This document shows, piece after piece, positions 787-31,502 of a stretch of DNA of 31,502 nucleotides. Source of the stretch: a virus. Every line of letters begins with the position of its first letter. Positions within the stretch are counted from its first letter, which is position 1. The stretch covers positions 1-31,502 of IMG/VR virus record IMGVR_UViG_3300017744_000082. One strand, written 5' to 3'. Under the pieces are notes generated by a model, which was not told the DNA's origin, searched no databases, and worked only from the letters and a program-made list of their open reading frames with translations. The translations under genes and the position numbers were made by a program.

Positions 787-804
787 TCTAATAGGGACAA
801 AACT

Positions 805-1248: not shown

Positions 1249-1267
1249 TGTGGAGTTATATAACAAT

Positions 1268-1296: not shown

Positions 1297-1311
1297 TTTA
1301 CGACTATCACT

Positions 1312-1814: not shown

Positions 1815-1823
1815 CCTATTATT

Positions 1824-2051: not shown

Positions 2052-2069
2052 TATCAAAAACAATAAACT

Positions 2070-2854: not shown

Positions 2855-2856
2855 TT

Positions 2857-4157: not shown

Positions 4158-4159
4158 AA

Positions 4160-7470: not shown

Positions 7471-7477
7471 CTATGTA

Positions 7478-8788: not shown

Positions 8789-8811
8789 GTTTAATTTTTG
8801 TATTTTTATAT

Positions 8812-9548: not shown

Positions 9549-9549
9549 C

Positions 9550-10122
9550 ATGAATAATGTAATTGCATTTAACTTGGCTAGCTGTCAAGTAAAACCTACA
9601 AAAGTTGTAGAAAACAAAAAGTATTTTAATGAAGGCGCGCATAGGTGTCAAATCTTATCTCTGTCTAATTCATCACAAAGAGCAAACTATATGGGCGCTC
9701 CTTATATTGAGTTTGATGTTGTTAATGAACAAGGAGAATATGGTAGGGCTAAGTTTTGGGCTGTACGTGAAACTGATTCACCTAAGTCAAAAGAATGGAA
9801 AATCAATACACTGCACGAGTTTTTAACAAACTGTGGTGTAACAGATTTTTCTAATGACATTGATTCTATGAAACAGGCTGTAAGCAAATGGATAAATATT
9901 TGTTTTACATTTGAAGAATATATGACTATGAAAGATGGACAACCAGTAAAACGAAAAGCTGTACGTTATCGTTGGTCTAGTGCTGACGGCAAAAAGATTA
10001 AGTATGATCCAAAGTACAATAAACCTATCTCACCTAGAGATGAACAAGAGTATATTGAAGCAAACACCATGAGCGGTGGATCTGCTGTTACTGTTGAATC
10101 AGACGACGGTTTGCCATTTTAA
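9550..10122 (+). CDS. SSB-like protein with acidic C-terminal tip, 190 aa
   Basis: The core (residues about 25-140) alternates strands and turns in an OB-fold-like way (HRCQILSLSNSS, PYIEFDVVNEQGEYGRAKFW, KWINICFTFEEYM). The C-terminus is a flexible linker ending DDGLPF, closely matching the DDxxPF tip by which bacterial SSB recruits partner proteins. It probably coats single-stranded DNA at the phage fork and offers the tip to host or phage partners. It lies two bases after the recombination gene. Core similarity to classical SSB is weak, so the call rests on the tail, layout and context. Confidence 0.6.
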   Translation: MNNVIAFNLASCQVKPTKVVENKKYFNEGAHRCQILSLSNSSQRANYMGAPYIEFDVVNEQGEYGRAKFWAVRETDSPKSKEWKINTLHEFLTNCGVTDFSNDIDSMKQAVSKWINICFTFEEYMTMKDGQPVKRKAVRYRWSSADGKKIKYDPKYNKPISPRDEQEYIEANTMSGGSAVTVESDDGLPF

Positions 10123-10139
10123 ATAATTTTGTAGTTTTG
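10110..10139 (+). promoter_or_regulatory. Bacteroidota-type promoter candidate before the RusA-like gene
   Basis: TTTG at 10110-10113 and TAGTTTTG at 10132-10139 match the -33 TTTG and -7 TAnnTTTG elements of the Bacteroidota primary sigma factor, with an 18-base spacer (19-21 is usual). A second -7-like element, TAATTTTG, lies at 10124-10131. Transcription would begin near 10145, about 13 bases before the ATG at 10158. The -33 element lies inside the upstream gene's end. Confidence 0.5.
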
Positions 10140-10157
10140 TAGACAAACTATAAAACT

Positions 10158-10541
10158 ATGATATTCATAGCAGGGAATGTGCCTTCAAGCAAAAATTCTA
10201 AACGATGGACTGGTAAAATGCTTATCAATTCAAAGACTGTTATGAAATACATAAAGGATACTGATATACAGTATAAAACCTTTAGGAAAGATTTTAAGAA
10301 ATTGATAGCAGGTAAGGAATTGCCTGTTATCGTTTCTTTTAAGTTTATTAGAGGAACAAGACATAGATTTGATTATGTTAATCCCGCACAAACTGTGCAG
10401 GACTTAATGGTAAAAAATGAATGGATTGAAGATGACAACGCTAGTTTTATTATACCAAGCTTTGAAGAGTTTGAATATGATAAAGAGAACCCTGGCGTCC
10501 AAATAAGAGTATATGATAAAACTCAAAGATTTTTTAAATAG
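10158..10541 (+). CDS. rusA: RusA-family Holliday-junction resolvase, 127 aa
   Basis: RusA enzymes cut four-way DNA junctions as dimers, using acidic residues to bind magnesium. The sequence has the usual opening (GNVPSSKNSKRW) and the core RHRFDYVNPAQTVQDLMV followed by NEWIEDDN, which supplies the aspartates at the active site, and then a PGVQI strand. Length is typical. It follows the recombination and SSB-like genes and fits branch resolution of replicating phage DNA. It overlaps the next gene by 29 bases. Confidence 0.8.
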   Translation: MIFIAGNVPSSKNSKRWTGKMLINSKTVMKYIKDTDIQYKTFRKDFKKLIAGKELPVIVSFKFIRGTRHRFDYVNPAQTVQDLMVKNEWIEDDNASFIIPSFEEFEYDKENPGVQIRVYDKTQRFFK

Positions 10542-10899
10542 TTATGTTGTTGCTAACAATATAAGTAAATGTGATTTCACATCTCCAAGTAGAAAAAGGA
10601 TGATTGTGGATGCAAGAATGATATATTGTGTAGTGGCAAGAAATCTTGGTGGATATACATTATCTGAAATAGGTAAAAGTATAAACAGAGATCACGCTAC
10701 AGTACTGTACGCGATCAGAAACTATGAACACTTATCTGCTTATGATCCAGACATCAAAAGCAAATACTATAAAGCATCTGTAATTTATAGAACATTAGAG
10801 TACAAACCAAATACAGAACGTATAGGTTTGATTGATACTTTGTTTGAGACTAATAAAAAGTTAAGACAAAGAATATTAGAATTAGAAAAATTAAATTAA
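10513..10899 (+). CDS. DnaA domain IV-like DNA-binding protein, 128 aa
   Basis: Residues about 30-75 read RMIVDARMIYCVVARNLGG, TLSEIGKSI, then NRDHATVLYAIRNYEHL. This is the C-terminal, DnaA-box-binding domain of DnaA: RDHxTVxxAxxK is the family signature. The AAA+ ATPase domain is absent, and the protein ends in a coiled-coil-like helix (FETNKKLRQRILELEKLN). It could bind the phage origin or compete with host DnaA. The start at 10513 overlaps the resolvase gene; the next start follows closely at 10902. Confidence 0.75.
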   Translation: MIKLKDFLNSYVVANNISKCDFTSPSRKRMIVDARMIYCVVARNLGGYTLSEIGKSINRDHATVLYAIRNYEHLSAYDPDIKSKYYKASVIYRTLEYKPNTERIGLIDTLFETNKKLRQRILELEKLN

Positions 10900-10901
10900 T
10901 T

Positions 10902-11240
10902 ATGACAATAAAAACAAAAACAAAAAAGAAAATTAACATAGACGGCAGCGATGTCAAAGTCGATGTTGATGTTTACAAAGTAATTCAAAATTTATCTGAA
11001 GCTTTGAAATCGCACGAAGTAGCATTATTAACATGGGTACATAAAATATACAATACTAAAAAACGTCACAACGACGATGAAAAAGGATTGCACAATTATT
11101 GTATGATGATTCCTGATGCAAGCAATATTATTAACAGAATGAGACTGATTGATGAAGAAACTGCCAAGAAAAGATCTAATGAAAGCGCAAATCCAGTTGG
11201 AGATGCAAAAGATAATGGATCTACTAATACAGAAAAATAA
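10902..11240 (+). CDS. Hypothetical protein, 112 aa
   Basis: Unrecognised. A basic start (TKTKKKINIDGSDVKVDVDVY) is followed by helices (KVIQNLSEALKSHEVALLTWVHKIY) and a disordered, serine/asparagine-rich end. No catalytic motif, signal peptide or membrane segment is visible. The A-rich context TTAATTATG precedes the start. The following gene begins within this one, in another frame. Confidence 0.55.
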   Translation: MTIKTKTKKKINIDGSDVKVDVDVYKVIQNLSEALKSHEVALLTWVHKIYNTKKRHNDDEKGLHNYCMMIPDASNIINRMRLIDEETAKKRSNESANPVGDAKDNGSTNTEK

Positions 11241-11451
11241 CTCATACGGTAATTCTGCTACACAACCAGCGAAGATTTTTTCAAAAGGGAACGCTGTTGA
11301 AAGTATTAGTGCGCGTATAGATGATAAACTTATGCGTATAGCTAATAAAGGTATTAACGAAAACACTTTAGATACTGTAGATGATTTAATAGGATATTTA
11401 GTTCTGTTGAAAATTGCATGGTCTGAAAAAGGAATAACAAATAGTAAATAA
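11152..11451 (+). CDS. Nmad1-like (DUF1599) protein, 99 aa
   Basis: The core LIQKNNSYGNSATQPAKIFS, then ISARIDDKLMRIAN, then DTVDDLIGYLVLLKIAW matches the nucleotide-modification-associated domain 1 family (KNxxYGNSA, RxDDKLxRI, DLIGYLxLLKI). Nmad1 is linked by context to modified-base systems in phages, with a MazG-like all-helical fold suggested. No base-modifying enzyme is visible nearby. The start is uncertain: ATGs at 11152, 11179, 11203 and 11215 are in frame, and the later ones shorten the overlap with the upstream gene while keeping the domain. Confidence 0.65.
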   Translation: MKKLPRKDLMKAQIQLEMQKIMDLLIQKNNSYGNSATQPAKIFSKGNAVESISARIDDKLMRIANKGINENTLDTVDDLIGYLVLLKIAWSEKGITNSK

Positions 11452-11452
11452 C

Positions 11453-11460
11453 TATCTTTG
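11453..11460 (+). promoter_or_regulatory. Bacteroidota -7 promoter element candidate (TATCTTTG)
   Basis: TATCTTTG is an exact TAnnTTTG match located just after the stop at 11451, with no good TTTG at the -33 position. It would start a transcript near 11467 that carries the hairpins at 11471-11487 and 11520-11537 as a leader before the gene at 11554. The element is short and could arise by chance in AT-rich DNA, but the location is apt. Confidence 0.4.
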
Positions 11461-11470
11461 TATTTCCTCA

Positions 11471-11487
11471 TAGGGCTTTCTGCCCTA
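11471..11487 (+). terminator. Hairpin with following T-runs, terminator or attenuator
   Basis: TAGGGC (11471-11476) pairs perfectly with GCCCTA (11482-11487) around a five-base loop. TTTT follows at 11491-11494, then a run of six T at 11500-11505. This is terminator-like, but the T-runs are not directly attached. It lies at the start of a leader of about 90 bases before the gene at 11554, so it could end the upstream unit or act as an attenuator. Confidence 0.4.
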
Positions 11488-11519
11488 GTGTTTTCATAGT
11501 TTTTTGTTAGTTGTCAAGG

Positions 11520-11537
11520 TCCCAGTCTTTACTGGGA
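11520..11537 (+). terminator. Second hairpin followed by TTTT, terminator or attenuator
   Basis: TCCCAGT (11520-11526) pairs with ACTGGGA (11531-11537) around a CTTT loop, followed immediately by TTTTGG. The seven-pair G/C-containing stem plus T-run has intrinsic-terminator geometry, although the T-run is short. It sits 16 bases upstream of the ATG at 11554, so it would also influence ribosome access. Confidence 0.45.
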
Positions 11538-11553
11538 TTTTGGCACTACACTT

Positions 11554-11886
11554 ATGGAAGAAATAGAATACTGGCAAATAGACAAGATAGAATCTATGTT
11601 ACATCTCTGTCCTTATGACGAGCAAACAAAGACAGATATCCTGAATAATCTACCTGAAACAAAGGAAGAAGCTTACGAGCTACTAGGTAAATTATGGTTT
11701 GATCATATACCTAGAGATCCAAGAGATCAATTTAACAAAATGATGAGTATGAACACATTAATAGAACGAGATTTTAAATTTTCGTATATTTGTAATGATT
11801 GCGGTGAAGACTTTGAATCACCAAACACAGAGACATTATGCACGGAATGCTTAAGTCCAAATATAAAAGAACACAATGAGAGCTAA
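11554..11886 (+). CDS. Protein with C-terminal zinc ribbon, 110 aa
   Basis: The N-terminal part is helical (YWQIDKIESMLHLC, KEEAYELLGKLWFD). The C-terminus holds two CxxC pairs, CNDC and CTEC, about 15 residues apart (YICNDCGEDFESP, then TLCTECLSP), a classic zinc ribbon that may bind nucleic acid or protein. The gene follows the two-hairpin leader and overlaps the next by 11 bases. No specific family is recognised. Confidence 0.6.
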   Translation: MEEIEYWQIDKIESMLHLCPYDEQTKTDILNNLPETKEEAYELLGKLWFDHIPRDPRDQFNKMMSMNTLIERDFKFSYICNDCGEDFESPNTETLCTECLSPNIKEHNES

Positions 11887-12076
11887 AGATCACAAGAAAA
11901 AAGCTGCTGATCTATTGGCGACTTTGTCACATTGGATCAATTACAGCAAATTTGATTATAATCTACAGGATCTATCAACTTTATTAGATGAAGTTAAAGA
12001 TAGATATACAGACTATATAGAGCTGAAATCTAATCCTGAACATGAGTCGAAAATAGAACACAAAAGCTATAAGTAA
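11876..12076 (+). CDS. Small helical hypothetical protein, 66 aa
   Basis: Unrecognised. It is basic at the start (RAKDHKKKAADLLATLSHW), then has an acidic helix (QDLSTLLDEVKDRYTDYIEL). It is coupled on both sides: the start overlaps the zinc-ribbon gene and the stop shares a base with the next ATG (TAATG at 12074-12078). Confidence 0.55.
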   Translation: MRAKDHKKKAADLLATLSHWINYSKFDYNLQDLSTLLDEVKDRYTDYIELKSNPEHESKIEHKSYK

Positions 12077-12468
12077 TGAGCAAAAACACAATCGTTTTTG
12101 AGGGCGGCATTGACAATATACGTACATTAGCCGATAACTCTCTACGTGTCAGTCTTGGCACACCAGAACTCACAGCAGAAATCGTAGGTAATATGTATAG
12201 TATGCTGAAACAACCAGGTTATGTAGTAATATCTACAAAGCCAATATCACAACAACAAATTGATGCTGTAGAAGAAGCAACTGTTGATAGGGAGTTTGAT
12301 ACTAAAACACCATCACAAAGATTGCGTAGTGTATTATACATACTTTGGGAACAAACACAACCTAAAGAAATAAATGCAGAGGGAACAACTGTATACATTG
12401 ATTTTGATTTATTTTATAAACGCAAAATGAATGAACTAACTAAATTTATAAAAGATAAATTAGTATGA
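12076..12468 (+). CDS. Conserved phage protein of unknown function, 130 aa
   Basis: The pattern NTIVFEGGIDNIRTLADNSL, then VSLGTPELTAE, and KTPSQRLRSVLYILWEQ later in the protein resembles a conserved family I recall from Bacteroidota phages and prophages. It usually sits near replication and recombination genes and has no assigned function. The N-terminal half looks like a beta-rich domain and the C-terminal half is helical and basic. It overlaps the following tiny gene by four bases (ATGA). Confidence 0.65.
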   Translation: MSKNTIVFEGGIDNIRTLADNSLRVSLGTPELTAEIVGNMYSMLKQPGYVVISTKPISQQQIDAVEEATVDREFDTKTPSQRLRSVLYILWEQTQPKEINAEGTTVYIDFDLFYKRKMNELTKFIKDKLV

Positions 12469-17567: not shown

Positions 17568-17987
17568 CTATTTATCTTCAGCGTTATTATTTTTGCTACT
17601 CCCACCAAAGAAAAAATCAATTATTGTATTGACTTTTGCAGACATTGCTCCAAAGATAGTTGAAATAAAGCTAATTTCAAACTCGCCCATATCAATTCCT
17701 CCACCAACAAAATGTTGAAACATCACAAAACTTATACCAAAATAAGCTACAGTAAATAATGTTGCTAATATTTTTTGTATAATAGCATCATCTTTATACA
17801 TGTCTCTTGCAGAATTACGATCTTCTACTTCTTTAGCAAAAGCTTCTTTTTCTGCATCAAGCAATACTTTGCGTAGCTGTAGCTTTGCCTCGTCTCTTTC
17901 TTTGTCAGTTGTGATAACTTTATCTAAAATGCCTTCTGCATTGTCAACTACTTTACCTAGTATGCCTCCTAAAAGATTATTAATCAT
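17568..17987 (-). CDS. 3TM holin-like protein, 139 aa
   Basis: The layout matches the GTA/phage 3TM holin family: a glycine-rich start (LLGGILGKVVDNAEGIL), a charged helix (KLQLRKVLLDAEKEAFAKEV, then EDRNSARDM), two or three hydrophobic segments (ILATLFTVAYFGISFVMF and EISFISTIFGAMSAKVNTII) and the terminal FFFGGSSKNN. It would insert in the inner membrane and trigger host lysis. It starts eight bases inside the T9SS protein gene, so both are in the same late transcript. Confidence 0.8.
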   Translation of the reverse strand: MINNLLGGILGKVVDNAEGILDKVITTDKERDEAKLQLRKVLLDAEKEAFAKEVEDRNSARDMYKDDAIIQKILATLFTVAYFGISFVMFQHFVGGGIDMGEFEISFISTIFGAMSAKVNTIIDFFFGGSSKNNNAEDK

Positions 17988-19971
17988 TGATTACTATTTT
18001 TATTATAAAACGCATATTGTTGTATTTTATTATTGCATTGTAAATACCTGCGTCAACTTGTAAAGATACAAAATTTACAGTTTTATGTTCAGATATTTTT
18101 TTACCAACCATACTGTATATATCTACATCTACATTATTTGTAAAATATATTTTTCCTTTGCTAGGATTTGGATATACTGATAATACAGTATTTCTTATAT
18201 TTTGTACATCGGTAGGGCCAGACCAGCCATCTAAACAATATTCATATAAATAATTACAAGTATTGTCCCATTCTACATCACAACAAAACTGATCAACATC
18301 AATCACCCATTCAAAACACTCATTAGGAATATAATATATATCACCAACGTTACAGCCAGCAGAAAAATAACACGTACTGTCTTCCACGTTAGCTGCTGTA
18401 TTGTAATTAACAGCGGTTGGATCAGTGCAACCATACAAAGGGTAAATACAGCTACCATTATCAGTATTTGCAGCCATGTCATAATTAATTGCTGTAGTGT
18501 CTGTGCATCCATATAAATAAAATATACAACTGCCGTTGTCTGTGTTACAAGTATCGCAGTAATTAAACATAGTTGGATCTGTACAACCAAATACTACAGG
18601 TATACATGATCCGTCATCACTATTTGCTAGTGCATTATAGTTAAAGGCTGTACCATCAGTACAGCCCCAGACAATAGATATGCATGAGCCATCATCTGTA
18701 TTCGCTAATGAATCGTAGTTTAACGCAGTAGCATCTGTACAGCCATAAACAAATGGTATACAACTACCATTGTCTACATTTGCGTTAACATTATAATTAT
18801 ACGATGTACTATCAGTACAGCCTTCTACGACAGCAATACAAGAATTAGGTAACTCAACGTTTGCCAATGAATCGTAATTAAGTGCAGATGAATCCATACA
18901 TCCGTATACAACCAACGTAGAACAACTACCATTATCGTAGTCGTAAAACGAGTTATATTCCAAATAAAGTGGATTAGTACATCCTGGATTATAATAACAA
19001 GTTCCGTCATCTGTATTTGCTGTATCATTATAATTTACTGCTAAACTATCAATACAACCATATGTTCTTTCTATACACTCATTACCACAATAAGGCATTC
19101 CGCTAACTATTACAAAAGGAACTAAAGGACTAGCAAATCCTCCTGGAGCATTAATAGCTATGTGCTCTTCAGAGTATACACTATACCCGCATTGTACTGA
19201 TGTAAACTGTGATTGTTGTGTTATGTTAAACTTTACTTGTATTGGTTCTGCAATACTTAATTCAAATGTAAACGTAGTATCAAAGCCATCATCAAGAGTA
19301 AATATACCTAAAAAGTTATTACCCTGAAATACTTGTAGATATGATCCAGCCCAACCATTACCTGCTAAATCTGTAAGCTCAAGTGTGTGTGTACAACTAT
19401 CTATTAATATATCAGTATTAGCTGAATCTATATAGTTAAATGCTAATGAGTCAGTACACCCGTAAACCTTTGGAGTATAACACATACCTGTGTCGACTGT
19501 TGCTATTGGTAAAAACTCTAAGAAATTATTATCCATACAACCAAATATAGGCGGAGGGGGAGCACAGTCATCTATTGTAAATCCGTGATAAGCAACAAAA
19601 CCAAAATTAGCTGAATCCATTTCAACTATTGTGTCATTACATCTTATCAAATAATACGAGCCATCTTGTCCGCCCCATAAACTACCTTGTATACCGTCTC
19701 CATATCCATCGTTTATTACAAATTCGTAATTACCATTAGGGACACATAGCTGCGTAACCTGAGGTGAATAGTCAACTATATTATCATAAGGACCGCCAGC
19801 AACTATAGTGTCTAAATTTTCATCTAATACAACCCAAGATGTTTCTTCTGGATATTGATCTGGGTTTATTACAATATCTAAATATGTTCCGTTAGGACAC
19901 TGAGCGTTTGCAATACATGAAATAAACATTGCAAAAAATAAAAATATATATATGTAAACTATCTTTTTCAC
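17980..19971 (-). CDS. Secreted cysteine-repeat protein with T9SS sorting domain, 663 aa
   Basis: The GTG start overlaps the upstream TAG. Residues 1-23 form a signal peptide (hydrophobic YIYIFLFFAMFISCI, cleavage near ANA-Q24). Residues about 25-135 resemble a domain common in Bacteroidota exoproteins (YPEETSWVVLD, GDGIQ). Units of the type YGCTDxTAxNYDxxANTDDGSC begin at Gly144 and Gly171 and, after a second exoprotein-like domain (about 195-300), nine follow from Gly305 to about Cys534 with a period near 26 residues. Residues about 596-663 (VLSVYPNPSKGKIYF, DIYSMVGK, LQVDAGIYNAII) are a T9SS type A sorting domain. The protein should be exported by the host to the cell surface. A role in adhesion or exclusion is inferred. 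Confidence 0.85.
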   Translation of the reverse strand: MKKIVYIYIFLFFAMFISCIANAQCPNGTYLDIVINPDQYPEETSWVVLDENLDTIVAGGPYDNIVDYSPQVTQLCVPNGNYEFVINDGYGDGIQGSLWGGQDGSYYLIRCNDTIVEMDSANFGFVAYHGFTIDDCAPPPPIFGCMDNNFLEFLPIATVDTGMCYTPKVYGCTDSLAFNYIDSANTDILIDSCTHTLELTDLAGNGWAGSYLQVFQGNNFLGIFTLDDGFDTTFTFELSIAEPIQVKFNITQQSQFTSVQCGYSVYSEEHIAINAPGGFASPLVPFVIVSGMPYCGNECIERTYGCIDSLAVNYNDTANTDDGTCYYNPGCTNPLYLEYNSFYDYDNGSCSTLVVYGCMDSSALNYDSLANVELPNSCIAVVEGCTDSTSYNYNVNANVDNGSCIPFVYGCTDATALNYDSLANTDDGSCISIVWGCTDGTAFNYNALANSDDGSCIPVVFGCTDPTMFNYCDTCNTDNGSCIFYLYGCTDTTAINYDMAANTDNGSCIYPLYGCTDPTAVNYNTAANVEDSTCYFSAGCNVGDIYYIPNECFEWVIDVDQFCCDVEWDNTCNYLYEYCLDGWSGPTDVQNIRNTVLSVYPNPSKGKIYFTNNVDVDIYSMVGKKISEHKTVNFVSLQVDAGIYNAIIKYNNMRFIIKIVIND
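18370..19060 (-). repeat. Nine in-frame cysteine repeats, period about 78 bases
   Basis: Nine tandem units of about 26 codons, each with the pattern GCTDxTAxNYxxxANxDDGSC, lie end to end in the T9SS protein gene. The glycine of each unit is at residues 305, 330, 357, 384, 410, 436, 462, 488 and 514. The DNA copies have diverged, so the array is an old protein repeat rather than a fresh slippage repeat. Each unit holds two cysteines that probably form a disulphide in the oxidising envelope. Confidence 0.85.
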
Positions 19972-20840
19972 TATAAATTATCAAAAGTTACATTAGACAA
20001 ATTAAAGTTTACTCCTAATGCGTTTGAAGAAACATCGTTACCATCTTCTTCTAAAGGATAATAAACAGTAGGATTATCGTTAATTAAAGTTGTGTAATCT
20101 GCCATTATACCATTATTATATAAAAGTTCAACTTTTCCAGCACTTAATTCAGTATTCCATATAGCAAAATCTCTTATACCTAATTTTCCATAAACATCAG
20201 CATACTGCCAATATCCTAAACTAAAACTATCATAATTGCCCACGGTACTGGCTAATGTTCCCGCATCAAGATCTCCTGTTGTTAATGCTTGACCATTCCA
20301 ATATATTGACCAATCACCAGTACCTCTTACAAATGCAAGTTGTACAAACCCATCAGCATTTGTGTTTATATTAGTATTACCACTGCGCCACATATTAGCA
20401 TGATCAGCTGAAGTACTGCCTGTTATATTAGGATTAGTACTAAAGTGTAATCTTCCAAATTCTACTTGTTTTAAATTACTAGGATCTGAAGTTCTTACCT
20501 CTATAAAAAGGTCATTTTTATTATTAGCAGAACTATCTTCTATCGAATAAAAACACCTAATAGCTTCATGTACATCTGTATCGCTGCCTAAGTAAAATAT
20601 TGGTATAACATTTGTACTAGAATCAGCTGGACTATCTGGTATCTCCCAAGTTGCTTTTACCCACATAACAATAGAAACATTATCACCAGTAGTGCCAGTG
20701 CCTGATATAAGCGTTGGGAGTCTACCTAATGAATTTGTTATAGCTCTACTGCTAGTACCATTAAAACTTGCGTACTGAGTTGCGTATGCAGTTTCACAAT
20801 AATCGGATGTTGTTATTGAATTTGATAAAGCTAATTGCAT
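19971..20840 (-). CDS. LamG/concanavalin-like lectin-fold protein, 289 aa
   Basis: Blocks typical of a Laminin_G_3-type jelly roll are visible: YASFNGTSSRAITNSL, VSIVMWVKATW, a DGFVQLAFVRGTGDWSIYWN segment, a long YDSFSLGYWQYADVYGKLGI stretch, and the closing RDFAIWNTELSAGKVELLYN with YYPLEEDGND. Such domains bind sugars or proteins and are common on phage fibres. There is no signal peptide, so unlike its downstream neighbour it is more likely a virion part. The ATG follows the upstream stop directly. Confidence 0.75.
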   Translation of the reverse strand: MQLALSNSITTSDYCETAYATQYASFNGTSSRAITNSLGRLPTLISGTGTTGDNVSIVMWVKATWEIPDSPADSSTNVIPIFYLGSDTDVHEAIRCFYSIEDSSANNKNDLFIEVRTSDPSNLKQVEFGRLHFSTNPNITGSTSADHANMWRSGNTNINTNADGFVQLAFVRGTGDWSIYWNGQALTTGDLDAGTLASTVGNYDSFSLGYWQYADVYGKLGIRDFAIWNTELSAGKVELLYNNGIMADYTTLINDNPTVYYPLEEDGNDVSSNALGVNFNLSNVTFDNL

Positions 20841-21173
20841 TTAAAATTTATTAATTATTAATTCATCTATATAGTCTTGTATTTCTTTTCTTGTAGCTTG
20901 CATTGTAAAACTTAAATCTGCTTGATATCTTTTTATTTCTTCACCATCATCAAATATTACAATAGTTGGAACAATAGCTATATTATATTTTTTTTGATTG
21001 TCATTGTTTTCAATAAAAAAAGACTGCTTATCGCAATCTCCTAACTTGTTAAACCACTCTACACCATTTTGTTTATTCCAATCCGCATTAAAGTGTATCG
21101 CTGTTATCTGAGCTGTACACGTAGTACAAACTGCAAACAACAAAAAAACCAAATATAATATCAACTGTTTCAT
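20841..21173 (-). CDS. Exported thioredoxin-fold protein lacking CxxC, 110 aa
   Basis: A signal peptide (KQLILYLVFLLFAVCTTCTA, cleavage before Gln22) precedes a thioredoxin-like domain. AIHFNADWNKQNGVEWFNKL occupies the place of the active-site strand and helix, with WNKQN where WCxxC is expected. YNIAIVPTIVIFDDGEEIKR supplies the cis-proline and final strands. Without the CxxC it cannot do disulphide exchange, so it is probably a binding or chaperone form. It would act in the periplasm. It lies between a membrane coiled-coil gene and the LamG gene. Confidence 0.75.
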   Translation of the reverse strand: MKQLILYLVFLLFAVCTTCTAQITAIHFNADWNKQNGVEWFNKLGDCDKQSFFIENNDNQKKYNIAIVPTIVIFDDGEEIKRYQADLSFTMQATRKEIQDYIDELIINKF

Positions 21174-21177
21174 TCAT

Positions 21178-21450
21178 TTATTGCATTCTGTCAATTTTAT
21201 CTTCTATACGAATCATACGTTCTTCTAACTTACGTACATCATCTCTTGTTTCAATTATAGTATTTCTAATATTTTCATCTTTCATGTTGAACTCCATTTT
21301 AGAAACTTCAGGAGCTGGCAATTCTTTTGCCTCGCTAATATCAGCTTGCAGTGTAAACCACATTCCAACAAGAGTGAAAATAAGAGCAGCTATTCCAGCT
21401 AGTGTTTTTATACTTATCTTAAAACTTGTTTCTTCGTTAAGCTCTTTCAT
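21178..21450 (-). CDS. Membrane-anchored coiled-coil protein, 90 aa
   Basis: From the ATG at 21450: a short N-terminal charged segment (KELNEETSFKISIKT), one membrane span (LAGIAALIFTLVGMWFTL), a proline-containing linker and a C-terminal coiled coil (TIIETRDDVRKLEERMIRIE, then DKIDRMQ). The frame extends to a TTG at 21495, but the ATG has the better A-rich context. A similar layout is seen in small phage lysis accessory proteins, but no spanin motif is present. A TATATTTG promoter-like site lies 69 bases upstream. Confidence 0.6.
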   Translation of the reverse strand: MKELNEETSFKISIKTLAGIAALIFTLVGMWFTLQADISEAKELPAPEVSKMEFNMKDENIRNTIIETRDDVRKLEERMIRIEDKIDRMQ

Positions 21451-21518
21451 TATTTTTACATTTCTTTCCGCAATGTCCAAAACAAACTTTACCAAAAGTT
21501 ATTTTATAAATTATTTCA

Positions 21519-21526
21519 CAAATATA
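21519..21526 (-). promoter_or_regulatory. TATATTTG (-7-like) candidate promoter before gene at 21450
   Basis: On the minus strand TATATTTG matches TAnnTTTG. It lies in the 86-base gap between the outer-membrane-barrel gene and the coiled-coil gene, one of the longest gaps in the late block. No TTTG at the -33 distance is present. Confidence 0.35.
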
Positions 21527-21536
21527 TTTTTTCATA

Positions 21537-22571
21537 TTAAAATATTATATAATTAATTCCCAATTTAAAATCATACCACTCTCTATTCCAATACTTGTGA
21601 TACTTTCCTTCTACAAAAGTACCTAAATGTTTGTTAATTTTCAAACCAAATATTAATCCTCCAGAATAATCGTACCATTGCTCCCCGTCATTAAAATTAT
21701 GATAAGAATATTCACCCCCATTGTTATAGTGATACGGTATAAAATTACCCCATGTGTGCAACCAAATATTTTTTTTGTAAGTATAATAATCAAAACCAAG
21801 CACAACAGAATGTACCCATTGATTTGGCAATTCATTTCTTTTCTTTTCTACGTAGTTAGATAATACTTGTGGTATAATAACCTCATCCCATACATCTGAG
21901 CTAGTAGCAATTATACTGCCTTCTGGATCTATATATTGGTTATCATATACATCTACGCTATATCCTTCTTGTATTGCTAAATATGTATAATGTAAATTAC
22001 CATTTGACAATATCCATTCTTCTAATGGATCATATCCATATGGTTCTGCAAGTCTTGTAACACCACCTATATTAAATGATAATTTTTTATTGCCTCTAAT
22101 TCTAAATCTTTGTGTAGCTTCATAGTATTCAACATCTGCAAAACCATCTTTCATGTATTCTACTTTTGTCATCCATAATGGTTTAACATAACGTAAAAAA
22201 TGATTTTGATCTATATACTTTATTCCCTCTTGTCTTCTATAGTCTACTTCAAATAAAAATTCAAATGGAGCTAAGCCTATTGTAGCAGCATCACTATAGG
22301 TAGTCTCTGTACCGTCTTTAAACGGACTGTTACCTTCGTATTGGAATCTTTTAATTTTTCTTATACCAGCAGTTAACGAATAGTCATATGGAGTTTCTTC
22401 TATACCTGTGGTAAGTTGGTCTTGAACATTGTATATAGTTTGATCAGACAATGATGTACCACCATTTACTGCTATATAAAACGTAGAAAATTTAAATAAA
22501 CCCTTAAGTTGTGCGTAAGAAGATATGTTGCATAGCAATAATATAAATAATATTACACTATGCTTTTTCAT
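21537..22571 (-). CDS. Predicted outer-membrane beta-barrel protein, 344 aa
   Basis: A signal peptide (KKHSVILFILLLCNISSYA, cleavage before Gln21) is followed by alternating aromatic/polar strands. The protein ends EGKYHKYWNREWYDFKLGIN then YIIF, with the C-terminal phenylalanine typical of barrel proteins recognised by the BAM complex. Several strands can be read, such as FEFLFEVDYRR, VVLGFDYYTY and GLIFGLKINKHLGTFVEGKY. I recall similar proteins in uncultured marine phages, but not a named family. It would reside in the host outer membrane rather than in the virion. Surface masking or superinfection exclusion is a guess. Confidence 0.75.
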   Translation of the reverse strand: MKKHSVILFILLLCNISSYAQLKGLFKFSTFYIAVNGGTSLSDQTIYNVQDQLTTGIEETPYDYSLTAGIRKIKRFQYEGNSPFKDGTETTYSDAATIGLAPFEFLFEVDYRRQEGIKYIDQNHFLRYVKPLWMTKVEYMKDGFADVEYYEATQRFRIRGNKKLSFNIGGVTRLAEPYGYDPLEEWILSNGNLHYTYLAIQEGYSVDVYDNQYIDPEGSIIATSSDVWDEVIIPQVLSNYVEKKRNELPNQWVHSVVLGFDYYTYKKNIWLHTWGNFIPYHYNNGGEYSYHNFNDGEQWYDYSGGLIFGLKINKHLGTFVEGKYHKYWNREWYDFKLGINYIIF

Positions 22572-23328: not shown

Positions 23329-23676
23329 TTAGACTTTAAATTTGTATATATTGTAATCCAACCCCATAAATGAATGTACTCCATTGTTATCTAAATCTAT
23401 TCTGTTATCTATCCAACCATTAGGTTCTACATAAGACAAAACCTCTGCTTCTGCATCAACAGGATCTAAACCTTTCCATAAAACATCTACATGATATTTG
23501 TCAGATAATACAGGCGCTTTAGTTTCTTCACCATCTTCGTTGTATTCTGCTTGTTCTAAAACAATAAAACCTAGTTTAATAATACAATGTTTATGAGCTG
23601 AAGATTCTTCTAAAGCATTTATCATATCATCTGCTTGTACTAAACTGTTAAATTCGTATTTACCTATCTTATTCAT
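23329..23676 (-). CDS. Small hypothetical protein, 115 aa
   Basis: Unrecognised. It has a mixed alpha/beta core (LVQADDMINALEESSAHKHC, IIKLGFIVLEQA, HVDVLWKGLDP) and an aromatic end (FMGLDYNIYKFKV), without a signal peptide. It sits between the fibre gene and the paralogous virion-like pair and overlaps the fibre stop by one base (TAATG), so it could be a fibre chaperone or a minor structural protein. Confidence 0.6.
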   Translation of the reverse strand: MNKIGKYEFNSLVQADDMINALEESSAHKHCIIKLGFIVLEQAEYNEDGEETKAPVLSDKYHVDVLWKGLDPVDAEAEVLSYVEPNGWIDNRIDLDNNGVHSFMGLDYNIYKFKV

Positions 23677-26210
23677 TAGCTTGTTAAATTTGTAAGTTGT
23701 GCATCACTTAAAGCCTCATTAAATACTGCTAGTGCTTTGCATTTTCCGTAGAAATCATCAGCACCTTGTCCACTATCAAAACTTATGTTGTTTAAAGTAT
23801 CAGCATTAAAAGTAGAGCCACTAGTATCTGAACCTATTTCAACTCCATTAACCCATAAAGCAAAATCATTAGCTTTCCATTTTAAAGCAAATTTTGCAAA
23901 ACTTGTTGAGCCTGATGGATTATATGTAATATCACATTGATTAGAATTACCAACTCTTACTATTGCTCTTATTTGATTATTTGTATTATTTCTAAAATGC
24001 ACACTTACAAAGTTATCATCTGTACTATCATTAATAGTTATATATCTATTTATATTTGTTTGTCCTTCTAATACAGCAATTTCTCCATAAAGAACACCCT
24101 CTGTACTATTTATCAATGTACTATTACCACTACCTGTTAGTGTTTCTGTTGCTCTTGTAACATTACTTGTTGAGTGAACAGGTATGTACGATGTTGAGTA
24201 TTCTAAATTTTCTACTTGCGCTCCCCAAACTAAAACGCTTTTACCTGCCACGCCATTAGTCGCGCCGTCATCTTCTGAAACAGCTCCAAATACATTGGTT
24301 GCAGAAGTGGTTTGTGTGGCTGTAAAAGTATTACTACATCTATACCAGCTGTTACCATAATCTTCTATTTTACCAACTGAAGTTCCTGACTCCGAGCCAA
24401 TAGTTCCGTTTTGTATGTTAAACCATACTCCCGTACTACTACTACTAATATGAGTTATTCTTACCCAAGGATGGTCTACATACTTAAAGAAATAACTTGC
24501 TGTATATTTTTCACCCACAACTAAAACAGGAGGCCCTGTATAAAAGTGCGCTGAAGTGCCATTGTTAGTAACCGTAGATTTGTACACTTTAGTTTTTCCA
24601 TCAGGAGCTAGCTCGTTAGTTAATGTAAAATCACCATTTGCATGGGTCCATTTATTAAAATTTTCACTATAGTCTTGTAGATTAGTAGAAGTAGGCTCTA
24701 ACAATATATGACCATTAGAACCATTACTATCATAGTTTATTCTAGCTAAATCTACATCTGTACCAAATGTAATGTCTTTTACTGATACATTGTCTATTTC
24801 TTGTAAATCACTGCTTCCTGCGTAAAAGATAAGTGCGCCACCACTATGATCTGCCGATGATATATAATACTCATATCCTAAGTTTTCACCTGTTGGTAGT
24901 TTTGTTGATAACGATGTACTTCCTACCAATACGGTAATATTGTCAGCAGATTGTAAAATATCTAAAGTTAATTTGTAATCTTTACTACCATCTAAACTAA
25001 GACTTGATGTAAGGTTTCTATTAGCAGTAGCAGCGTTTGTATCGCATATCGCTCTACCATCAGCTATTCTCCAACCATTACTTCCACCTACATTACTAAA
25101 ACTCCATCTATCATTAGGATCTACTTGTTGTACTGATATACTATTAAGTGTAAAATTATTGTCTGTAGAACCATTTGATACAAAAAACCTACCTACGTTA
25201 CCGTTCACTCCTGCTACAGTAGAAAATAATGTGTTAACACCATTTGATAAATCGGTAAAATTAAAAAGAGTTGTTTGACTATTTGAACTTTTTAAAGCTA
25301 CAAGAGCATTACCGCTTGATATTGTGATGTCTATAACTATTTTATAGGTTTGACCTACTTCTGCTGCTATTGCATTTGTAAAATTTATTTGACCTGTACT
25401 ACCTGAGCTTTTATCGTATGTGTATAAATTAGTTGTAGAGTCTAATATAAAATTAGAGGTAGTTGATACACCAGATGGATAATTAATCCCATTATCACCT
25501 AACTCTTCATAATCACCATTAAGTACTAATTCAGGATCAGTAATACTCTGCATATCTTGTATTAAACCACTAGAGTTTATTCTTGTAGCACTACTTGCTC
25601 TATCAAAAACAAAGTCTGATGATAGGTCTATTAATGATATTGTAAAACTAGATATACTATAAGTTTTTGTACCATCAAAACCACCAAAAACTGTACCATT
25701 ATCTGTAAATTCAATTTCTTTAGTAGTAGTAAAATCATAGTTTTGAAATAAATAACTTGAGCCATCATAAAAATCAAAGTTTAATGTGCCTGTTATTGTT
25801 CCTGTTGGAGTAATGATTAATTTATATTTTCCACCACTTGTAGTATTAAAATCAAATTTTGGTCTTAAACTACTTCCTGTAAATCCATTAGCTGTAGAAC
25901 TATAAGAGTTGTTAGAAATTTGTGTTATACTACCACCAGCAACATTTACTATTGTAGCAGCTGATGGCATTAACTCATCACCTGTAAAGGTTTTTACAGA
26001 ATGTACTTTTGCATCACTTGTTGCAGTAGGAGTAAGTAGTATGGTAGCTTTGTCTAATACATCAGCACTTTTTATTGCCTTAATAGTAGATTTAGATGCA
26101 TCACTATTTTCAAAATATGTTACTCTATCTTTTAATGTAGATAGTAAAGAAGATACTATGTCTCCTATTTTTTTTGCTGTTGTTAATAATATACCTAATC
26201 CTAAACTCAT
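23676..26210 (-). CDS. Tail-fibre-like protein with CBM- and LamG-type domains, 844 aa
   Basis: The N-terminal roughly 60 residues are helical (likely attachment). Beta-rich domains follow. At about residues 200-218 is VFDRASSATRINSSGLIQ, a motif found in many phage fibres. In the middle comes LLEPTSTNLQDYSENFNKW with the WGAQVENLEYSTSYIP and TRATE motifs of a carbohydrate-binding fibre domain. The last 140 residues (about 700-844) form a LamG-type jelly roll ending ALAVFNEALSDAQLTNLTS. This protein probably recognises the host surface. It is coupled to the giant gene by an ATGA overlap. Confidence 0.85.
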   Translation of the reverse strand: MSLGLGILLTTAKKIGDIVSSLLSTLKDRVTYFENSDASKSTIKAIKSADVLDKATILLTPTATSDAKVHSVKTFTGDELMPSAATIVNVAGGSITQISNNSYSSTANGFTGSSLRPKFDFNTTSGGKYKLIITPTGTITGTLNFDFYDGSSYLFQNYDFTTTKEIEFTDNGTVFGGFDGTKTYSISSFTISLIDLSSDFVFDRASSATRINSSGLIQDMQSITDPELVLNGDYEELGDNGINYPSGVSTTSNFILDSTTNLYTYDKSSGSTGQINFTNAIAAEVGQTYKIVIDITISSGNALVALKSSNSQTTLFNFTDLSNGVNTLFSTVAGVNGNVGRFFVSNGSTDNNFTLNSISVQQVDPNDRWSFSNVGGSNGWRIADGRAICDTNAATANRNLTSSLSLDGSKDYKLTLDILQSADNITVLVGSTSLSTKLPTGENLGYEYYISSADHSGGALIFYAGSSDLQEIDNVSVKDITFGTDVDLARINYDSNGSNGHILLEPTSTNLQDYSENFNKWTHANGDFTLTNELAPDGKTKVYKSTVTNNGTSAHFYTGPPVLVVGEKYTASYFFKYVDHPWVRITHISSSSTGVWFNIQNGTIGSESGTSVGKIEDYGNSWYRCSNTFTATQTTSATNVFGAVSEDDGATNGVAGKSVLVWGAQVENLEYSTSYIPVHSTSNVTRATETLTGSGNSTLINSTEGVLYGEIAVLEGQTNINRYITINDSTDDNFVSVHFRNNTNNQIRAIVRVGNSNQCDITYNPSGSTSFAKFALKWKANDFALWVNGVEIGSDTSGSTFNADTLNNISFDSGQGADDFYGKCKALAVFNEALSDAQLTNLTS

Positions 26211-29200
26211 CTTTCTAATAGTGGTTCTGTTATTGCTTTAAACGGTAATATTTTTCTTGCTGTTCCTTTTGCTTTTAAATCTGAACGAGCACCAAATTTA
26301 CTGTCTCTTTGATATCTTTCTAAAGTAATTAATTCTTTACTAAATTGCAAAGCATTTCTACCTGTTGATATTGATGCTGGTGGTATTGTATAATTTACAA
26401 AACGTTTTGTATCTGTAAATATTAATGCATCATTGCTTAGTTTTCTTAAACTATCAGAATATATATCATCATCATCAGATAAGCTACCTAATAATAATAA
26501 CATAGCTGTTAATCCAAAACCCCTTAGTAATGCATGTATAGCATCTTGTCTAAACTCAGGTAAAGCTTCAAACTCTTGTTTAAGCTTCATCATGTCTACT
26601 TCGCCATCAAACATTTTCTTAACAAAATCATATCCAGCTCTATATGATCCAATTTCTTTTTCACCAAACCTGTTTATATCTTCTTGTTTTAATCTATTGT
26701 ATGCTAATGTTATAAACCAACGTTTAAATTGCTGAGCAGCTACACCCAAAGAATACATACTTAATAGTCTTTGATCTAGTTGTGTATAGCCCTCTCCGTG
26801 CATTGTAGCTATACGTGAGTTAATTTCCATAACTCTTTGTTCTGATACCTCACCACTGTCATATTCTTCCTGTGTAAGCTCTCCTAAAAAAGCTGCGCCT
26901 TGTATCCATTTTTCAGATAGCTCCATTGGTAAGAATGCCCATGATTCTATTTGACTAAAAGAATCTTTTGCACCCACAACATCACTGAAAGATAATTCTA
27001 CGATCCTGTATTTTTTAATTATATCCATGCCTTTCCAGCCATCCTTAGTATATGATGTCCAAAATCTTTTTTCGCCTAATATAAATTTCTTACCACCCTT
27101 AGCTCTAACTTCTTGATATTTACCAGCAAGAATGTTACCAACACCAACTGCAGCGCTAAAACCTAAATGCACTAATGCAGTCCATCTGACTAAAAACTGT
27201 GTAGCTTTATCAAAGTTTTTACCGAACATACTCTCTTGTCTTTGTTTTCTTAAAAAACCTTGACGCCATACTTTAGTAAGATATTCAGCAGAATTTTTAT
27301 TTCCCATTTCATTGTTTACTGCAATGACAGCATCAACTAATGTAGCAATATCATTCATGCCTTTAAACTCTCCATATCCATGTACAAATGATACAGACCT
27401 AACATATTGTTTTAAATTTTCTGTAAGATTGTAACTTGTAAGCTCTTGTGCTCTTACAGTTCTACTAGCATTAAATCTACTAAATAATCCACCCTCCATT
27501 AATGTATCCATTTCAAGATCTGTTGCAACTATTGCGTCACCATCTTCATGAACACCAAGTTTTGCTTGAGCTTCAGCTTTCTTTTTTAATTTACTTAATT
27601 CTTTTATATTTCTTCCTTTAACTATTAAACTGCCACCTTCTGTCAAATATAAATCTTTCCAATAACCAAAAGACTGTAATACTTTTTTACCTTCAGGATT
27701 TGTTCCATAAACTTTTATACCATCTATATTATTTGTAGATCCTAGAGAATTAGCATACAACCCTAACAAACCTCTAGCAGACAACGCTTCAAGATTACCC
27801 ATTTGTACGTGCGGTATATAAAACTTACCCATACCATCTTTACCAATCACATTTCTAAATTTAGCTGTTATTTCCATATACTTGTTATAGAAATCTCTTT
27901 CTTCTTGTGATGGATTGCTAGAATTAAACGTAGCCCTATCTACTAAACTTATGCCGTTATTTCTGCCATTTTTTATATCCTCAGTAAACATTTTTCCAAA
28001 CAACTCTTGATGCCTAGCTCTAGGATTATACAGGCCTTTTAAACTAAAACCTTTGCTTCTTCTCAAAGCTCTATGTACTGTGTCTATTTCTTGCACTAAC
28101 GATTGTACTTCACGTACATACTTTCTGTATTCTTTTTCTATTTCATTAAGCATAAACTGTATCTCTGGTCTGTTAGATGTCATGTTATTTGCTCCAAACC
28201 ATTTTCTTATTGCAGATATATCTTCTTGTCCAGCTTCAAATGTTTCTCCTGTTTTGTCTGCAATTTTTTGAGATTGTATACGCATAGCCTTTTTACCAAT
28301 AGCTAAATGTAATTTATGTAATAACTTAGGGCTAGCAAGTTCATCTTCTCTATTTTGTAAATCACCAGCTATCTCAACCAATTCCTTAATTGATCTAGAG
28401 TCCATGTCTTGTAATTTATTTTCCAATGCCTCTACATTAGCTAAAGAATCTAAATACCTTTTATATCTGTCTTCTAAATATCTTTTAACTTTTGGTTCAG
28501 CATTTGTTACTGCATCAGGACTATAACCTAAAAACTTAAGATATTCATTATAAGTAAGCGTCTTAGTTAACTCTTGTAAATGATCTTGATAAAACTCTCT
28601 CTTATTTAGTTTTAGCTTTGCAGTACCACTTGGCTCAAATGTTTCTTGACCTTTAAGTCTTTGTACTTCTTTTTGTGTAGTGGTAGTTTTTTCTTCATTT
28701 CTAAATAGATTAGGATGATTTAGCATTAGTTCATTAGCTTTGTCAACTACAGCAGAATCATCGATAGATGGTGTATTGTTTATTTCTTTTTGCAATAACT
28801 CATCTAACAAACCAAACTTCTCACGAACATAGTTTTGTGCAAACAATGACGTAAGTGTTTTACCCTTAAACCCTAAACCATTTTTAATGTAATCAAACTG
28901 TAATAAAGCGTCTTTAATGTTGTCAGGAAGCGTTGTAAACTCATTACGAGCTATTTGTATAGTTTCCTCTACACTAAACTTATTAATTTCATTAGGATTG
29001 ATTTGTATATTAGTTTTATAAAAATCATCTTGCTGCTCTACATTGCTAAATAGTAAATATTTTTTTACAAAATTATCGCCTGGTAATTTGCTATGAGCCT
29101 CTAATGTATTGTATACATCTTGCAGTGATTTATTATTTATATTCAGTGATGGCACAGCTTCTGCTACCTTCATTAAATAGTAGTCTTCTAATAAACGCTT

Positions 29201-31502
29201 GTGCTCATATCTACCAAAATCAAACTTAATATTTCTAGTATCTTGTATATACTCTATCACCTGTCTTGCTTCAGGTGTATACATGAATGATGTAGACTTT
29301 TGTCTATTTATTTGTTTTTGCAATAAGTTTAATGCATGTTTAACCATTGGATCAGATCTAAAATTACCCAATGTATTAGGATTAAGAAAACTTCCTTTCA
29401 CATCTTCTGTAATAATAGTTACTAGTTGTTGCGCATCGTGTCCAAACTGTGGCACAGATTTGTGTACTGATAATGCTTTACCTATTGAAAAAACTTGATC
29501 TGTAGTTTTTTCAAGTTTGTACAACATATCAAACAAAGCTAACTCAGCATTTTTATTTTTACCTTTAAGTTGTTGTGTATTTAGTTTAATATTCCCTGAT
29601 CCTTTGAAGCTATCTATTTTCTTTTTAGCTGCTTTTTTTCCTACATTAGAATAATATTCTGCATAAGCATTTACTAAAGCTTGATTGGTATTGCTAGTAG
29701 TCATAATAGATTGATCGCCTCTATGCTTATCATATAGCTTAACAATAGGGTGATTCATTATAATTGCAACATCTTTGATGTCAATACCAGTTCTTGCTAA
29801 TAGTGTAAATATATTTACTGTGTTAGGCGTAAGTCCTAGCTTGTTTGCATATTGATACTTAGCATTATCTAAAACTATGTTTAATAGCTGTGCTACTGTA
29901 AATGCATCACCTTCTGGTTTACTTTCATCAAATCTATCTACTAAAGAACTAATCTCATCATAGTTGTCTATTTTCAAGCCAAATGTAAATCCTACTTTAT
30001 GACCTGCCATTACATTTAATATACGTTGTAATGATGCTATAGTACCAATCATATTCTGTGCAGGTACATTATCATTAAAGTATTGTGAATCACCAGTTGG
30101 TGTTAACTGATTATCCATTACAAGTTTTTTGCCATAGAATGATTCGACAGCTGATATAGCTCCTTCTGCTATTTCTTTTATTTCAATAGGCGTAGTTATT
30201 TCTTTATATCTACGACTATCAATCTCTATATCTCCTAATAGTTTAAGATTCAAATCAAGTAATTCATTTGCAGATACTTGATAGTCTTTTAATAAATTAG
30301 TTTGTATTCTTGCTTCTGTTCCTAATGGCGATGTTCTTGTTGTTCCAGGCACATTACCATAATGTTTATAATTTATATATATAGCGTCTCCATCAAGGTC
30401 TGCACCCATTACAGCAGACACCTTTGAAGGTATCTCTATAGTTGATCTAGCGCCTTCTGTTCCTTCTTGTGCAAATCCTTTTACAACAAAAACAACGGAA
30501 GATTGTTTACCGTGTGCAGGTATACGCGTACCTAATACTAAATCACCTACTTTAACACCATCTTGTTTTGCAGTAGCTGGTATAATAGCTTCAGATACAA
30601 CAAAGTCTTTGCCTTCTTCTATTTTGCTATTTAAAACATTTATGTATTGCTCGTTAGTAGACTGGTCAATAAGATCAGATATTTTTATATACGATTTTAA
30701 ATCTCTACCAATTGGCGATGTTTGATATGCTATAGTACCACCAAACATAGCTTTAGTACCAAACTTAACAAGTCTTGACGCGGCTAACTGCTGCATCATA
30801 CTGTGTAGCTGTGGATGTAATCCTGGTGCATATTGTGCAAGTGATGTATTAAGATTGCCAAAAAACTCTTCGCCTATTAGCTTAGATAAAAATTGTACAT
30901 CTTTTTCACGCTGCTTTGGTGTTGATTCATCTGAATATATTACACTACCACTTCGTTCCTGCTCAAACCCTATCATTGACTGTGCAGCTAACTCATGCAT
31001 ACGTTTTACCATAGCTTCTTCACCTGGCTCTAGGTTAGTATGATGATGTCCAAACAACTGCGATGGCATGTGGAATGAATGTCTTTCTTTGTCAAGCTCT
31101 ACTTGTAAACCAAAACCTTCACCGCTAAGTCCTTGCCAACTATCTAATAAGTCTGCTTCTGCTTCACCTTTAGCATTATATATTTCATTTTGTTTATTTA
31201 CTATATCTTCCTCTGTTGTGTTTTCTAAATCATACATATATTCTTTGCCTGGCGCATATACTTTTAATGCTGATTCAAACGTAGCTATAGGAATAAAATC
31301 ATGATTTCTACCTGTAATTTCTGGACCTGGTATTAGCTTAGATGCGCCAATAGCTTCTTTTCTTGCTCTTAATATGTTTGCTATTTTTTTACGATAAGGA
31401 CTATTTTTTTCCATTTCTGGTGTAATCTCATCTATCTTAAACTTTGCAAATGTTCTTTTTCCAAACATTTTACTGTTAGGATTATCTGTTTCTACATAAT
31501 CA
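26207..31502 (-). CDS. Giant virion-type protein with DxDGD RNA-polymerase-like motif, partial (at least 1,764 aa)
   Basis: The gene is cut by the right edge: the frame has no stop upstream of the Met at 31468 and reads DYVETDNPNSK into it, so that Met is not the real start. Numbering from it, Arg315-Ile-Pro (GTRIPAHGKQS) is followed about 42 residues later by KVSAVMGADLDGD, with Asp357, Asp359 and Asp361. Cellular RNA polymerase beta-prime has RAP followed about 35 residues later by NADFDGD, whose three aspartates hold the catalytic magnesium. Single-chain phage polymerases (YonO, crAss-like gp66) keep DxDGD. The C-terminal 500 residues include hydrophobic stretches (VHLGFSAAVGVGNILAG; GFGLTAMLLLLGSL), as in proteins ejected with phage DNA. 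Family assignment is inference. Confidence 0.7.
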   Translation of the reverse strand, partial: DYVETDNPNSKMFGKRTFAKFKIDEITPEMEKNSPYRKKIANILRARKEAIGASKLIPGPEITGRNHDFIPIATFESALKVYAPGKEYMYDLENTTEEDIVNKQNEIYNAKGEAEADLLDSWQGLSGEGFGLQVELDKERHSFHMPSQLFGHHHTNLEPGEEAMVKRMHELAAQSMIGFEQERSGSVIYSDESTPKQREKDVQFLSKLIGEEFFGNLNTSLAQYAPGLHPQLHSMMQQLAASRLVKFGTKAMFGGTIAYQTSPIGRDLKSYIKISDLIDQSTNEQYINVLNSKIEEGKDFVVSEAIIPATAKQDGVKVGDLVLGTRIPAHGKQSSVVFVVKGFAQEGTEGARSTIEIPSKVSAVMGADLDGDAIYINYKHYGNVPGTTRTSPLGTEARIQTNLLKDYQVSANELLDLNLKLLGDIEIDSRRYKEITTPIEIKEIAEGAISAVESFYGKKLVMDNQLTPTGDSQYFNDNVPAQNMIGTIASLQRILNVMAGHKVGFTFGLKIDNYDEISSLVDRFDESKPEGDAFTVAQLLNIVLDNAKYQYANKLGLTPNTVNIFTLLARTGIDIKDVAIIMNHPIVKLYDKHRGDQSIMTTSNTNQALVNAYAEYYSNVGKKAAKKKIDSFKGSGNIKLNTQQLKGKNKNAELALFDMLYKLEKTTDQVFSIGKALSVHKSVPQFGHDAQQLVTIITEDVKGSFLNPNTLGNFRSDPMVKHALNLLQKQINRQKSTSFMYTPEARQVIEYIQDTRNIKFDFGRYEHKRLLEDYYLMKVAEAVPSLNINNKSLQDVYNTLEAHSKLPGDNFVKKYLLFSNVEQQDDFYKTNIQINPNEINKFSVEETIQIARNEFTTLPDNIKDALLQFDYIKNGLGFKGKTLTSLFAQNYVREKFGLLDELLQKEINNTPSIDDSAVVDKANELMLNHPNLFRNEEKTTTTQKEVQRLKGQETFEPSGTAKLKLNKREFYQDHLQELTKTLTYNEYLKFLGYSPDAVTNAEPKVKRYLEDRYKRYLDSLANVEALENKLQDMDSRSIKELVEIAGDLQNREDELASPKLLHKLHLAIGKKAMRIQSQKIADKTGETFEAGQEDISAIRKWFGANNMTSNRPEIQFMLNEIEKEYRKYVREVQSLVQEIDTVHRALRRSKGFSLKGLYNPRARHQELFGKMFTEDIKNGRNNGISLVDRATFNSSNPSQEERDFYNKYMEITAKFRNVIGKDGMGKFYIPHVQMGNLEALSARGLLGLYANSLGSTNNIDGIKVYGTNPEGKKVLQSFGYWKDLYLTEGGSLIVKGRNIKELSKLKKKAEAQAKLGVHEDGDAIVATDLEMDTLMEGGLFSRFNASRTVRAQELTSYNLTENLKQYVRSVSFVHGYGEFKGMNDIATLVDAVIAVNNEMGNKNSAEYLTKVWRQGFLRKQRQESMFGKNFDKATQFLVRWTALVHLGFSAAVGVGNILAGKYQEVRAKGGKKFILGEKRFWTSYTKDGWKGMDIIKKYRIVELSFSDVVGAKDSFSQIESWAFLPMELSEKWIQGAAFLGELTQEEYDSGEVSEQRVMEINSRIATMHGEGYTQLDQRLLSMYSLGVAAQQFKRWFITLAYNRLKQEDINRFGEKEIGSYRAGYDFVKKMFDGEVDMMKLKQEFEALPEFRQDAIHALLRGFGLTAMLLLLGSLSDDDDIYSDSLRKLSNDALIFTDTKRFVNYTIPPASISTGRNALQFSKELITLERYQRDSKFGARSDLKAKGTARKILPFKAITEPLLER

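Follow-up and report, generated by a model that had tools for sequence, protein, structure and literature searches.

Giant virion RNA polymerases, up to ~6,000 aa long, are a hallmark of crAss-like phages (PMC10136315). In phage phi14:2, gp66 is a virion enzyme that transcribes the early genes (PMC7886860; PMC10136315), and RNAP-associated proteins have been detected in crAss001 virions (PMC10172136). The phage cr271_1 and similar gut phages carry the polymerase within a giant chain (cr271_1 gp48, 4,620 aa; genome 93 kb), and P23-45 has a known tape-measure fusion with a metallopeptidase (PMC10770324). Here we analyzed a virus record of 31,502 nucleotides, called the window throughout, whose right end carries part of a giant gene. 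We consider it very probable that the whole gene encodes a DNA-dependent RNA polymerase of the crAss-like virion type, with two barrels on a single chain and a complete core of the cellular type, and that the window shows its C-terminal half. The protein is built as a collinear fusion of three proteins.

A giant gene at the right end of the window

The window is a 31.5-kb virus fragment ending at this edge, so the rest of the gene was read from relatives. A minus-strand frame at 26207-31501 runs open to the edge and has 1,764 codons, or 1,753 when counted from an ATG at 31468, in agreement with the original prediction of a protein of more than 1,750 residues cut at the window edge. One correction is that the frame does not represent a near-complete protein: full-length relatives have 3,645-4,102 aa (the nearest ones are 56-80% identical) and place ~1,890 N-terminal residues outside the window. 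The frame is the second half only of a protein of ~3,650 residues, and one of the two barrels is complete within the window. The frame and the tail protein gene at 23676-26210 overlap by 4 bases. Searches of the giant protein against the curated families of Pfam, PHROG and NCBIfam returned nothing at threshold. The features of the locus are as follows.

26207..31501, minus strand: giant fused protein, 1,764 residues from its C-terminal side (open frame and full-length relatives; gene cut by the right edge)
31390..31501, minus strand: 3' part of the beta-like (lysine) double-psi barrel (Lys 2 in 41/41 and Lys 1 in 40/40 rows of alignment A7)
30353..30760, minus strand: predicted beta-prime-like double-psi barrel region, boundaries approximate and taken from the model of relative L006 (AlphaFold2, Foldseek, VIA-align)
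30500..30526, minus strand: RIPAHGKQS, residues 326-334, matching RIPTEGKQS of crAss phages and RIPNQGQSS of phi14:2
30386..30400, minus strand: DLDGD metal-binding motif, three Asp in 40/40 rows, aligned with DFDID of phi14:2
26210..27121, minus strand: C-terminal region with homology to gp65 of phi14:2 ('RNA polymerase associated protein') plus one hydrophobic helix, limits approximate (hhalign; hydropathy of relatives)
23676..26210, minus strand: next gene downstream, encoding a tail protein (PHROG 5939, E 4.8e-44)

Catalytic residues, relatives and predicted fold

The DLDGD of the sequence GADLDGD was found where it had been placed, at residues 357-361 from the ATG (368-372 of the open frame), and the Arg of RIPAHGKQS lies exactly 42 residues ahead of the first Asp, as the proposed spacing of about 42 had it. 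We assessed conservation in alignment A7, which has 41 rows, 40 of them covering the aspartate site. The three aspartates, on whose conservation the original prediction hinged, are present as D-x-D-x-D in 40/40 covering rows, with G at the fourth position in 28 and I, V or T in 12. Both the Arg and Pro of the R-I/V-P motif and the Asp of the TDAQ/NDAQ motif also occur in 40/40 rows. The partner barrel was beyond the reach of the original prediction; full-length relatives have it, with two invariant lysines (K113, 40/40; K136, 41/41) that are unchanged also among the intermediate sequences taken alone. Lys 2 is residue 20 of the window frame (31442-31444) and Lys 1 falls 4 residues past the window edge. 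The lysines stand in the contexts FKHVY (Lys 1, as read in relatives) and TFAKF (Lys 2) in the family of the window and in QKNFYYD and RQIKNAEF in crAss phages; their likely phi14:2 counterparts are PLKGVYF, identified by eye, and TYLKYS, seen also in the hhalign alignment. Overall, DxDxD, the two lysines, the R/P pair and the TDAQ-motif Asp are unchanged across 41 sequences whose identity goes down to 15-19%.

Scanning viral contigs identified seven loci with 58-76% identity. The gene is whole in L002, L005, L006/L007, L016, L018 and L020, where it encodes 3,645-3,774 residues with DxDGD near residue 2,255-2,380. Alignment-guided scans reached the intermediates (L033-L036, L086, L091, L094, L099, L101 and others; ~23-47% identical to their queries) as well as contigs of crAss-like phages, ~69-98 kb long, in which the barrel alone matches (24-44%). 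The motif reads GSDKDGD, GSDHDGD or GADLDGD in the intermediates, and GSDFDID and similar in the crAss-like contigs. The sole matches in a scan of genome contigs were crAss-like barrels in metagenome-assembled genomes. A direct sequence search of INPHARED recovered one phage genome alone (two records, E 4e-4), and tblastn of the intermediates L034 and L099 against the same database gave no match. In a quick tree of both barrels the window groups with L006 and L016, and midpoint rooting places its family and the intermediates apart from the gut crAss sequences.

We predicted the structure of the 710-residue core of L006, which is 83% identical to the window over the overlap, with AlphaFold2 using 41 sequences and no templates. 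The model is of medium confidence (pLDDT 75.5, pTM 0.75) and represents the relative's sequence, not that of the window. An earlier model of 1,181 residues built from 10 sequences was set aside, its low confidence (pLDDT 44) being due to too few sequences. Foldseek gave 6VR4, the phi14:2 enzyme, as the best PDB match (E 5e-16), followed by QDE-1 and plant RDR2. VIA-align scored QDE-1 highest (Z 17.0) and 6VR4 at Z 15.6 over 586 residues at 4.2 A; it pairs model residues 1-710 with residues 821-1670 of the 6VR4 chain, and hence covers both barrels. Because the AlphaFold2 alignment contained neither gp66 nor any PDB sequence, the 6VR4 match was not put in by hand. Among named viral predicted structures, the best matches are mostly from crAss-like phages. 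The original prediction stood or fell with a double-psi barrel around the motif; the predicted fold, a paired double-psi barrel, matches RNA polymerases of this type, with 6VR4 and QDE-1 aligned across both barrels.

Correspondence to gp67, gp66 and gp65

A profile of nine family members matched phi14:2 gp66 in hhalign (97% probability, E 9.4e-11, gp66 798-1664), which bears out the suggested relation to the crAss-like enzyme. When an HMM of five members was run against the whole phi14:2 genome, the gene it picked was gp66 (E 6.9e-5); in cr271_1 it was gp48 (E 1.3e-9). In the PDB, a sequence search by phmmer did not recover 6VR4, and a profile search returned a repeat protein and a hypothetical protein, no others, which we judged spurious, again without 6VR4. 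We then compared the N part, core and C part of the full-length proteins with 27 proteins of the phi14:2 structural block (the portal being partial) and five cr271_1 proteins. The N part matched phi14:2 gp67 (hhalign 95.8%, E 7e-9), the core matched gp66 best of the phi14:2 structural proteins compared (97.3%, E 2.5e-11), and the C part matched gp65 (96.0%, E 3.7e-9; also by blastp from relative L005, E 8e-4). The other phi14:2 structural proteins compared scored ~1% or below, and sizeable secondary matches were limited to the cr271_1 giants gp47 (N part 89%) and gp48 (core 95.8%, C part 9%). Since each part picks a different phi14:2 gene, and gp67, gp66 and gp65 are adjacent genes in the same order there, annotated from virion MS/MS, these comparisons show that the gene joins three equivalents in one collinear chain, with gp67 at the N-terminus, gp66 as the catalytic core and gp65 at the C-terminus.

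Two further elements lie outside the catalytic core. An HExxH motif is present in the N-terminal half of 14/14 full-length relatives, with a conserved E-E-A/S/T-F ~110 residues after it in most of them; no Pfam peptidase model matched the HExxH region at threshold. A hydrophobic helix near the C-terminus was seen in four of the five relatives scanned. Processing by the zincin-like HExxH motif is speculative.

The window's family shares with phi14:2 gp66 (PDB 6VR4) both barrels on one chain with matching order and spacing (~390 residues from TDAQA to DxDxD), the R-I-P motif, DxDxD and the two lysines, as well as the flanking gp67 and gp65 equivalents and a place in the late structural block. 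It differs in having ~20% identity, DxDGD instead of DFDID, and a single gene of ~3,650 aa where phi14:2 has three separate proteins (1,797 + 2,180 + 1,421 aa). The giant chains of cr271_1 gp48 and its counterparts in similar gut phages resemble it, with RIPxxGKQS...GSDxDxD, NDAQSY and both lysines. In cr271_1, however, the gp67-like part has its own gene upstream (gp47, 2,749 aa), the gp65-like C-terminus of gp48 is weakly indicated (9%), and the fourth motif position is I/V/T. P23-45 gp96 (PMC10770324; PDB 8H2M/8H2N) is likewise a giant protein of the injected type with a two-barrel polymerase (motif DFDGD), a metallopeptidase motif and a membrane segment, but its polymerase forms the N-terminus of a tape measure of 5,002 aa in a long-tailed Thermus phage, and its fold match is weaker (VIA Z 11.2). 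The QDE-1 / RDR polymerases of RNA interference share the two-barrel fold, but are eukaryotic, RNA- or DNA-templated and without gp65- or gp67-like parts. The kind of enzyme is already known; what is new is the single-gene fusion of three phi14:2-type proteins, the small genome size and the bridging sequences that carry DxDGD. We found no report of a gp67-gp66-gp65 fusion in the literature text covered, which did not extend to the figures of Yutin et al., where an earlier description is possible.

Could the core be something other than a virion polymerase? A polyvalent or tape-measure-like injected protein, with a polymerase core that is inactive and serves a structural or DNA-binding role, would account for the giant size, the HExxH motif, the hydrophobic helix and the tail-gene neighbours, and giant injected proteins carrying such parts are common. 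The catalytic residues are nevertheless all invariant over a very divergent set, which is unexpected for a dead enzyme, and we regard this explanation as very improbable. Alternatively, the gene might encode an RNA polymerase that is absent from the virion and synthesized after infection to transcribe middle or late genes, comparable to P23-45 gp64 or the phiKZ-type late enzymes. The fold alone cannot separate these classes, and P23-45 gp64 and a homologue are among the structural matches; this origin is rendered very improbable by the position of the gene in the late structural block, in the order of the MS/MS-annotated phi14:2 gp67-66-65, and by the fusion of the polymerase to gp65 and gp67 equivalents. 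A chance DxDGD in an unrelated protein, which would fit the lack of matches at threshold in Pfam, PHROG and NCBIfam, has a negligible probability and is already refuted by the residue conservation, the profile comparison and the predicted fold. Sequence homology, the match in fold, the conservation of the catalytic residues, the fusion and the neighbouring genes all favour the two-barrel polymerase of the crAss-like virion type. The kinship with the crAss-like enzyme proposed in the original prediction has thus held up through profile, residues and predicted fold; packaging of the protein into the virion would follow by analogy with the homologues.

The phage, its lineage and the proposed working of the polymerase

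One relative, G001 (L070-L073), comprises 67,431 bases with an exact 68-base terminal repeat. Because of this repeat, and because the tail-gene pieces sum to whole codons once the repeat is removed, G001 is probably a complete genome of ~67.4 kb; among those listed, gut crAss-like genomes are mostly 83-104 kb. The best matches of its TerL are crAss phages (E 3e-58), its portal matches PHROG 6547 (E 1e-120) and the phi14:2 portal (E 1e-56), its major head protein is crAss-like, and a crAss tail-barrel ring protein was recognized (PF25702 CrAss_Ring_2, 33.2 bits vs a cut-off of 27). The generic TerL family phrog_2 had no match in the relatives because the crAss TerL belongs to another PHROG (6681). 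Homologues of gp71, gp72 and the portal share the structural block with the polymerase gene, and the order TerL, portal, head protein, gp72-like, gp71-like and polymerase resembles that of phi14:2. A scan of seven structural-block proteins for an IHF/HU domain found none, although remote homologues could escape such a scan. The TerL, portal, head and ring proteins and the gene order place the phage in the crAss-like assemblage, either inside Crassvirales or just beside it. According to Yutin et al. (PMC7886860), environmental phages adjoin the deepest crAss branches.

The window has early-looking genes on the plus strand (267-12468) and late genes on the minus strand. A search of the plus-strand intergenic regions for an early promoter motif gave no clear motif, and ATATTGGATTAT, a candidate at the late/early junction, was not upheld across relatives. 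A conserved TTTTGCGTAAT(A/G)CCTGCACGCA is found at the late/early gene junction of G001 (~42900-42960) and G002 (~30700-30750) and is a possible control region or origin.

Other elements were observed in the window. In the late region, 17980-22571 (minus strand) holds three genes for exported, host-like proteins. One product, of 663 aa, has a signal peptide and a sorting domain of type IX secretion (PF18962, E 1.1e-4, under the curated cut-off); the other two are a thioredoxin-like protein of 110 aa and a possible outer-membrane barrel of 344 aa. The three are 61-91% conserved in G002 and G003 and have no match in G001. On the plus strand, two stable hairpins precede a small ORF (11455-11553, z -5.6); the G001 equivalent (L072:14220-14320) folds alike (z -6.4), with the common stem AAGTCCC/AGGTCCC...GGGATTTTGGC, and Rfam had no match in the window. 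A tRNA-like mini-element at 165-217 (plus strand; ACCTAT ... GTAGGG-TTCGATT-CCCTAC then directly ATAGGT) consists of an acceptor stem and T arm without the other arms, and ARAGORN reported no tRNA.

By analogy with the homologues, the polymerase of the window phage would most likely be made late, packed into the head and driven through the tail into a host of the Bacteroidota, before or with the DNA. Its ejection would occur in a partly unfolded state with refolding in the cell, as described for phi14:2 and crAss001 (PMC7886860, PMC10136315, PMC10172136). The injected enzyme would then transcribe the early genes independently of the host polymerase, with the catalytic magnesium held by the three aspartates and the two partner-barrel lysines assisting. 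It is conceivable, if doubtful, that the one polypeptide is a self-contained delivery-and-transcription device of a compact crAss-like lineage: its N-terminal part would serve in ejection or at the membrane, a zinc protease would release the polymerase once inside the cell, and these would be joined to a complete core with the cellular-type DxDGD site and to a membrane-linked C-terminus.

Our analysis adds to the range of the crAss-like virion polymerase a lineage whose genomes measure ~67 kb and which lacks close relatives in the phage database. Intermediate sequences connect the DxDGD and DFDID forms of the motif. As a single-gene object, the protein is simple for studying the ejection and refolding of so large an enzyme. 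The fusion of the gp67, gp66 and gp65 equivalents points to a single functional complex of these three proteins in other crAss-like phages.
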